Source of the DNA: Flavobacteriaceae bacterium
GTDB lineage: Bacteria; Bacteroidota; Bacteroidia; Flavobacteriales; Flavobacteriaceae
Direction of reading: 5' to 3'
Assembly: GCA_947377425.1 (NCBI GenBank)
Contig: CANCFZ010000002.1
Coordinates: 1-34,774 of the forward strand
Length of the DNA: 34,774 bases
This document shows positions 1 through 1,758 of the stretch, one piece after another. The position numbers and the translations under genes were made by a program. Numbering within the stretch: the stretch's first letter is position 1; every line of letters starts with the position of its first letter. The notes under the pieces were generated by a model that did no database searches, was not told the origin of the DNA, and saw only the letters and a list, made by a program, of their open reading frames with translations.

Positions 1-62
1 CTCGATACAAATTTCTAAAACAAAAATTGCATTTTTGTTTTGAAAATTCACTCGAAGTGACG
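1..62 (+). repeat. Hairpin repeat unit U1 (CTCGATACAA...CACTCGAAGTGACG)
   Basis: Conserved ends ctcgatac and cactcgaagtgacg; internal stem aaaacaaaaa-ttgca-tttttgtttt. Same family at 128-189, 269-331 (inverted), 675-736, 803-862. Confidence 0.85.
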
Positions 63-127
63 CAATGCTGATGATGATGTATGCGTAAACCAAGAAATAT
101 AGACTAAAGAGTTAGTGCTACCAAGTT

Positions 128-189
128 CTCGATACAAATTTTCAAAACAAAAATTGCATTTTTGTTTTGAAAATTCACACGAAGTGACG
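128..189 (+). repeat. Hairpin repeat unit U2, 17-bp perfect stem
   Basis: aattttcaaaacaaaaa-ttgca-tttttgttttgaaaatt bounded by ctcgatac and cacgaagtgacg. Confidence 0.85.
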
Positions 190-268
190 ATGCATAAATA
201 ATTATGAATAAAATTCCAAGATCCCAAAACTAAACCATTAGAACTACTAAACAAAAATTTTACTCTAT

Positions 269-331
269 CGTCACTTCGAGTGATTTTTTGTTTTAAAAAC
301 GCTAGTTTTTGAAACAGAAAATTGTATCGAG
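269..331 (-). repeat. Hairpin repeat unit U3 (inverted copy, diverged stem)
   Basis: Reverse complement reads ctcgatacaattttctgtttcaaaaactagcgtttttaaaacaaaaaatcactcgaagtgacg; same ends, different but still largely self-complementary interior. Confidence 0.8.
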
Positions 332-350
332 AACTACTAGAAAAATAACG

Positions 351-641
351 CTATTTAAACTTCTTCTTAGCTAAATTGGGTAAAGCATCATAATCTCCAT
401 TTATCAGAGCTTCTTTCTTTGCTCTAGACCATTTTTTTATCTGTTTCTCTGTATCTATTGCTAAATTTATATCTGTAAATTCAGCATAGAATACTAGTAG
501 CAATGGTCTTCTACTTGCTGTATAGCAATCTGGATAAAACGCTGTGTTGTGTTGAAACATTCTTTGTTCCAACTTACTTGTAACTCCAGTATAATAACTG
601 TTGTCTGAACATTTTAATATGTAGACATAAGATTGTTGCAT
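351..641 (-). CDS. GIY-YIG nuclease family protein (about 96 aa)
   Basis: MQQSYVYILKCSDNSYYTGVTSKLEQRMFQHN...: YVYIL/YYTGVT core of single-domain GIY-YIG proteins. The listed ORF extends upstream into repeat U4; the start at 639-641 (cat) gives the conserved N-terminus. Confidence 0.9.
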   Translation of the reverse strand: MQQSYVYILKCSDNSYYTGVTSKLEQRMFQHNTAFYPDCYTASRRPLLLVFYAEFTDINLAIDTEKQIKKWSRAKKEALINGDYDALPNLAKKKFK

Positions 642-674
642 TTTACAAAAATAATAAATTCCTGCTTCCCAGTT

Positions 675-736
675 CTCGATACAAATTTCTAAAACAAAAA
701 TTGCATTTTTGTTTTGAAAATTCACTCGAAGTGACG
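675..736 (+). repeat. Hairpin repeat unit U4 (identical to U1)
   Basis: 62 bp identical to 1-62 by eye. Confidence 0.85.
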
Positions 737-802
737 CAATGCTGATGATGATGTATGCGTAAACCAAGAAATATAGACTAAAGCGTTAGTGCTACCAAGT
801 TC

Positions 803-862
803 TCGATACATTTATTATAAAATAGCTCCATCGATATTTCATAAAAAACACTCGAAGTGACG
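803..862 (+). repeat. Hairpin repeat unit U5 (third stem sequence type)
   Basis: ctcgatacatttattataaaatagctccatcgatatttcataaaaaacactcgaagtgacg; ends conserved, interior unrelated but still foldable. Confidence 0.75.
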
Positions 863-1470: not shown

Positions 1471-1532
1471 AATGTTTACACTTTTTACTAATTATAACAA
1501 ATATAACTAAATCTACTGATATCAATACAAAA

Positions 1533-1611
1533 CGACCGCAGTCCTTTTGAAAAATGAACGTGGTCAAATTAGAAAATGACTGTGGTCAATTATATAAATG
1601 ACTGTGGTCGT
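1533..1611. promoter_or_regulatory. 22-bp-period direct repeat array with one inverted copy upstream of the HU-like gene
   Basis: aaaatgaacgtggtca (1551), aaaatgactgtggtca (1573), ataaatgactgtggtcg (aligned position 1595): exact 22-bp period; inverted relative cgaccgcagtcctttt at 1533-1548. Confidence 0.65.
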
Positions 1612-1758
1612 TTTTGTCAAAGCTTTTGAACTGCTTAAATTTTCATAAGTAGTTGTTATGATAAAACTAATTAAATAAACGAATTGATAGTATGTAAAAT
1701 CTTTTTTATTAGGATTACGCCATTTTTTTGAGTAACTTTAGGTTATTAATTTCTTATT

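Follow-up and report, generated by a model that had tools for sequence, protein, structure and literature searches.

A single-domain GIY-YIG nuclease gene enclosed by CGTC-tagged REP-like repeats in Flavobacteriaceae, and its counterparts in other bacteria

Few repeats in bacterial chromosomes are as common as REPs, and the half of them tagged with GTAG has a partner enzyme, RAYT. The other half, tagged with CGTC, includes dRS3 of Neisseria and RPE-4 and RPE-6 of Rickettsia (Di Nocera, De Gregorio, Rocco 2013, PMC3733652). These repeats are recognized by a CGTC (or TGTC/CCTC) tag at the end, lying beyond the palindrome, and by the predominance of inverted pairs whose tags face outward (HH). 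A typical one is 20-40 bp long, with an 8-9 bp stem, a 4-5 nt loop and a 3-nt tail. No dedicated transposase was found for them, and the question was left open (PMC3733652). In the searchable open literature, we found no paper joining GIY-YIG proteins and REPs; most subscription journals and preprints lie outside it, and the novelty of the link described here is provisional. One Moraxella paper lists both kinds of gene without linking them, and searches with the unit end sequences returned only unrelated papers among the matches listed.

The window, the whole stretch of 34,774 nucleotides analysed here, belongs, as contig C2, to a MAG of 76% completeness close to Flavobacterium. Five units of about 60-63 bp with shared ends had been reported at its start in an initial annotation, clustered around a GIY-YIG ORF, and both the units and the ORF were recovered (Table 1). 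All five units have the left end CTCGATAC, while the right end is CACTCGAAGTGACG in four and CACACGAAGTGACG in U2. AGTT precedes four of them, and U1 begins at the contig edge. GACG is terminal in every unit, which places CGTC first on the opposite strand. About 8e-7 chance occurrences of the strict end pattern are expected in 2.3 Mb; the genome of the window, at 76% completeness, holds six, and none of the reversed control pattern. The nuclease gene is enclosed by U3 and U4. Hairpin folding, suggested for all five units despite their differing interiors, ranges from -11 to -17 kcal/mol in four of them, and U5 folds weakly (-5.3 kcal/mol). The stem of U2 is indeed perfect, with 18-nt arms around a 3-nt loop rather than the 17 bp first given. 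An RNA-family identity of the region was rejected, since all cmscan matches were sub-threshold chance matches. Elsewhere in the window (1529-1614), an array of AATGACTGTGGTC-like half-sites lies between HU-like and NAD(P)H-hydrate dehydratase genes and is possibly an operator.

Table 1. Positions of the repeats, the nuclease gene and the proposed element in the window
Feature	Position	Strand	Remarks
REP-like unit U1	1-62	+	CGTC tag at 62-59 on the complementary strand
REP-like unit U2	128-189	+	Perfect 18-bp stem, 137-154/158-175
REP-like unit U3	269-331	-	CGTC tag at 269-272; left border of REP-gene-REP
REP-like unit U4	675-736	+	GACG at 733-736; right border of REP-gene-REP
REP-like unit U5	802-862	+	Third interior type, weak fold
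GIY-YIG nuclease gene, 96 aa	351-641	-	PF01541, 60.1 bits; subfamily I, KKWSR...LPNLAKKxF
Proposed minimal element, CGTC-REP / GIY-YIG gene / REP-GACG	269-736	.	468 bp, tags outward
147-bp direct repeat, copy 1 (U1 + spacer)	1-147	+	
147-bp direct repeat, copy 2 (U4 + spacer)	675-821	+	96% identical to copy 1

The strict pattern was present in 12 of 60 relatives, with stem sequences varying between genomes. Collection from all loci gave 645 distinct units, most ending in GACG or GACA, and 568 distinct interiors, which were thinned at 80% identity to 281. In these, the first ten positions were 75% paired, as against 33-43% when the partner was shifted by one or two, and every inner-stem position showed each of the four Watson-Crick pairs; these counts, and those of the outer stem below, are of sequences, not of evolutionary events. 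Mean interior folding energy was -4.6 kcal/mol, compared with -0.9 kcal/mol in shuffled interiors. At the S position of the outer stem (ASTTC/GAAST), C-G occurred 99 times, G-C 52, G-G 32 and C-C once (p 3e-22), and the units of the window are of the mismatched G-G kind. The stem covariation that the initial annotation had proposed can be regarded as established for this set of aligned units. In these units, a CGTC tag is joined by a short outer stem (ASTTC/GAAST) and by a long inner hairpin that keeps its pairing while its sequence is free to vary. Because of this 5-bp outer stem and long variable inner hairpin, we call the units of the window a CGTC-tagged, REP-like variant form and not a typical member.

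The PF01541 domain of the window nuclease carries the catalytic Y, Y, R and E, and the protein scores 193.7 bits against profile A1. Six residues (Y7, Y17, R27, H31, E65, K69) are invariant in 163 proteins. The dN/dS of the gene against relatives ranges from 0.02 to 0.14, with 0.02 to the nearest and no value for two saturated pairs. As estimated from these alignments, the nuclease is shown to be under purifying selection, with its catalytic residues kept. A structure model (pLDDT 80, from seven sequences) had its best matches in UPF0213, for which no function or flanking repeat is described in the literature searched, and then in Slx1. A role in defence or in phages was considered and rejected, as the nuclease had no PADLOC and no PHROGs match.

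A profile search of named genomes with the window nuclease retrieved 79 loci, mostly in Flavobacteriaceae (among them Flavobacterium, Winogradskyella, Aquimarina, Maribacter and Tenacibaculum), and nearly all had units 5-250 bp from the gene. In this branch, subfamily I, 100 of 105 distinct proteins, nearly all from Flavobacteriaceae, had a unit within 300 bp, and 89 had one on both sides. Counted by flank, units were found in 189/210 within 300 bp and in 17/210 at 900-1200 bp (p ~4e-72), a ratio inflated by the mostly coding nature of the control flanks. The anticipated enrichment beside the gene is therefore present. In the two-sided genes, the tags point out/out in 45, in/in in 19 and in mixed directions in 25. 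Some genes scored as having no unit bear variant repeats, such as CGTTG-AYTTCGAG at L216 and GTCAGTCTGAG at L222. Four members of the nuclease clade (L222-L225) are without the usual units, and in L222, the one of them that was read, a different palindrome, GTCAGTCTGAGGCTCTCGAAGAC, lies to either side.

Across the order (398 genomes), a subfamily-I nuclease (142 bits or more) was present in 26 genomes, 21 of which had the end pattern CACTCGAASTGACG, compared with 24 of the 372 others. Equal abundance without the nuclease, which the initial annotation had named as a refutation, was thus not seen. These 24 genomes also indicate that the nuclease is not required for the presence of REPs. The genome G017 is 99% complete, lacks a subfamily-I nuclease and contains 26 strict copies, many near-identical, which suggests that amplification can go on, or persist, without this enzyme. 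Many of the strict units of G017 are arranged in tandem near polysaccharide genes (L071, L080, L081). The nuclease itself is distributed patchily (84/398 genomes at E 1e-20, sister genes included). Subfamily I is usually present in one copy per genome, and decayed copies with stops were seen.

A second GIY-YIG branch with the signature KAGSR occurs in the same genomes, and its genes lie beside a CGTC-type REP of another kind, GTCATTGCGAG...GAAGCAATCTCA. Across Bacteroidota, this subfamily II had its own REP in 47/62 flanks, compared with 2/62 further out, and 26 of its 31 genes had a REP nearby. Tags point out/out, in/in and in mixed directions in seven each of the 21 two-sided genes. REPs of the AST type were found in 189 flanks beside subfamily I and three beside subfamily II, those of the ATT type in 47 flanks beside II and one beside I (p 4e-45); the reversed motif of the matching type was absent from the flanks of either. 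Both nuclease/REP pairs co-occur in three genomes (G005, G013, G036). On a tree of 126 proteins, whose single forks are uncertain owing to few columns and a quick method, REP type required 19 changes, against a shuffled mean of 62.8. The motif test was used for Bacteroidota because a detector of 8-bp palindromes, which scored 6/58 flanks there, is blind to outer stems of 5-6 bp. Judged from these genome comparisons, the association of units with nucleases and its branch specificity can be considered established.

It was also considered that all GIY-YIG genes might be alike in this respect, which was rejected: distant families, including tRNA-linked tandem arrays, are without CGTC REPs, as are the 15 distant GIY-YIG proteins on the tree. 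In the same genomes, such families form tandem arrays with units of ~350-390 bp (L261, L253, L254, L255, L256; L253 lies on G007:C24). Several arrays are located just 3' of tRNA genes (tRNA-Pro, tRNA-Val, tRNA-Met), and in L261 (G022:C1:180000-184500) the last ~31 nt of tRNA-Pro are repeated in each of the five units. These arrays at tRNA 3' ends look like a second kind of GIY-YIG element.

Outside this order, we read records of a plasmid collection, several of them as large as a chromosome, that carry a standalone GIY-YIG gene; they come from Sinorhizobium, Shinella, Rhizobium, Azospirillum, Sphingobium, Novosphingobium, Aeromonas, Neisseria, Planktothrix and, in one case, Spirosoma (Bacteroidota). 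Tagged palindromes were present in 26/34 flanks within 250 bp and in 3/34 at 900-1150 bp, with no reversed tags, and 12 of the 14 proteobacterial and other genes were flanked. The proteobacterial flanks carry classical CGTC REPs, for example CGTCATCCTCGGGCTTGACCCGAGGATCCA in S. meliloti. On one 3.7-Mb S. meliloti replicon, a search at E 0.001 found the full REP only at the nuclease locus. The repeat flanking the gene in N. gonorrhoeae, CGTCATTCCCGCG...CGGGAATC, is of the dRS3 type, and taken alone this flanking may be due to chance, as dRS3 may be abundant enough in Neisseria. In two different orders, sufB and sufC have a REP-flanked GIY-YIG gene between them (L305, Azospirillum; L316, Shinella PSBB067, with neighbours identified from sequence alone), which could reflect either a common ancient insertion or a favoured site. 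S. meliloti also has five near-identical matches (L342, L344, L346, L348, L352; two were read) within a repeat that joins an apparent GIY-YIG 3' end to a partial REP, inside another palindrome array.

Several loci show signs of mobility. In S. meliloti, a derivative copy adjoins a complete REP-gene-REP; it consists of the two REPs with the last third of the gene, and is 93% identical. Such an internally deleted copy with the ends of the gene-bearing form was seen at one locus, the other cases being one-ended remnants, and S. medicae plasmids retain 5' gene remnants. Between fnrL and a response-regulator gene, Sphingobium TomTYG46 and TomMM7A carry REP-gene-REP, while TomTYG64 and TomTYG74 carry a lone palindrome tagged at both ends, which equals the outer half of one REP joined to that of the other; TomTYG72 has other sequence there. 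Plain loss between 8-bp repeats could also explain the solo allele, a point against a mobile element. A Shinella plasmid carries dispersed gene-less inverted REP pairs in HH orientation, with the same ends as the gene-bearing pair. Neither a target-site duplication nor a clear insertion into a naive site was found in the few sites compared (Sphingobium, Shinella). A candidate empty site in Sinorhizobium sp. K101 was left out for its poor alignment.

We consider it probable that REP-gene-REP is mobile, with a nuclease acting on the cognate REPs, and that gene-less REP pairs derive from this element. CGTC-REP, gene and REP-GACG would form one small element, and the nuclease would recognize its own type of REP by the conserved ends or by the fold. 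We infer that it nicks or breaks DNA at the cognate REP, and that REPs, and at times the whole REP-gene-REP, are then moved or amplified through repair or replication from a further copy. Gene-less pairs would arise by internal deletion, as MITEs do from transposons, and REPs might be kept by the nuclease as REPINs are by RAYTs. Against this stand the outward tags on both sides in only 45/89 subfamily-I and 7/21 subfamily-II genes, and the REPs in genomes without a subfamily-I nuclease (24/372), and G017 with its 26 copies. The main rival, which we regard as unlikely, is homing: a selfish GIY-YIG gene would cut pre-existing gene-less REPs and be copied into them, without making or moving REPs. 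The enzyme does belong to the superfamily of I-TevI-type homing enzymes, the Sphingobium site holds in some strains the gene with a REP on each side and in others a lone palindrome with a tag at both ends, and gene-less pairs have the ends of the gene-bearing pair. However, REP types track the nuclease tree, which under homing would require REPs to diverge along with the enzyme, and REPs are far rarer without the nuclease (24/372 vs 21/26). Moreover, the left REP of the occupied Sphingobium allele is complete, so that the gene was not plainly inserted into the centre of a palindrome, which also speaks against homing.

Less likely again is a domesticated nuclease, now scarcely mobile or immobile, whose housekeeping or regulatory task would be to process REP hairpins or cruciforms, for example to keep palindromes stable or to act on its own transcript. 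This would agree with the low dN/dS (0.02-0.14), the usually single subfamily-I copy per genome and the fold neighbour Slx1, active on branched DNA, but the patchy distribution, decayed copies and deletion derivatives look like an element with turnover. Movement of the REPs by a Y1 (HUH) transposase, whether a RAYT or some other, with the GIY-YIG genes adjacent by accident, has a known precedent in REP/RAYT systems, and Y1_Tnp genes occur in 33 of 60 relatives. We rejected it as very improbable: neither the REP-bearing G012 (99% complete) nor G000 has a Y1_Tnp match, tagged 8-bp palindromes occur at only 3/54 flanks of Y1_Tnp loci, and the tag is CGTC, not GTAG. Passive gathering of REPs in permissive intergenic DNA where GIY-YIG genes also sit is hardly credible, even though REPs are mostly intergenic, since these repeats are absent beside other, similarly sized GIY-YIG families of these genomes, REP types are not exchanged between the two subfamilies, and the full REP was found on the 3.7-Mb S. 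meliloti replicon only at the nuclease locus (E 0.001). A nuclease that cuts REPs and so spreads them would be the most economical reading of these patterns, and among enzymes that could spread or maintain CGTC REPs, the GIY-YIG nuclease is the strongest candidate.

The initial annotation's interpretation is supported, and its parallel with RAYTs and REPs holds, as an analogy; the CGTC-type identity of the REPs, the REPs particular to each branch, the link across phyla and the 147-bp repeat go beyond it. More tentatively, and on balance leaning slightly against so broad a claim, we propose that single-domain GIY-YIG nucleases are dedicated, transposase-free mobilisers of CGTC REPs across several phyla, including dRS3 and the large alphaproteobacterial families, and that they cut cognate hairpins by structure and so spread REP-gene-REP elements. 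If the link is true, a cognate GIY-YIG nuclease would answer the partner question for the CGTC half of REPs, and a very common class of small nucleases, to which no role is assigned, would gain a function. It would also add an enzymatic route for moving short bacterial repeats, and REP spread could be tested with a 96-aa enzyme and short oligonucleotides.

Compared with known systems, the units share with CGTC REPs an unpaired CGTC tag at one end, a palindrome straight after it, inverted pairs, at some loci with outward tags, and an intergenic location. The REPs flanking the proteobacterial nuclease genes match the published description, with CCA-like tails and an 8-9 bp stem, whereas most Flavobacteriaceae units differ in their length (50-80 bp), 5-bp outer stem and long free inner stem. 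Here the partner is a GIY-YIG gene, while the published account lists no transposase association. The nuclease resembles standalone UPF0213 GIY-YIG proteins (PDB 1zg2, 1ywl) in fold, sequence family, single domain and intact catalytic residues. Slx1 of Slx1-Slx4, its nearest structural neighbour outside UPF0213, acts on branched DNA, but that system is eukaryotic, depends on Slx4 and has no repeats. With the GIY-YIG homing endonucleases I-TevI and I-BmoI it shares the superfamily and the gene-bearing and gene-less alleles at one site; unlike them, it has no intron and no separate DNA-binding domain, and its target would be a hairpin repeat. From REP/RAYT the present system differs in the CGTC tag instead of GTAG, in a GIY-YIG nuclease instead of a Y1 HUH transposase and in showing no Y1 linkage in the genomes and flanks given above. 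As in REP/BIME/REPIN-RAYT (TnpA-REP) systems, there are inverted pairs, a single-copy enzyme gene flanked by its cognate repeats, dispersed gene-less copies, and repeats that persist without the enzyme.
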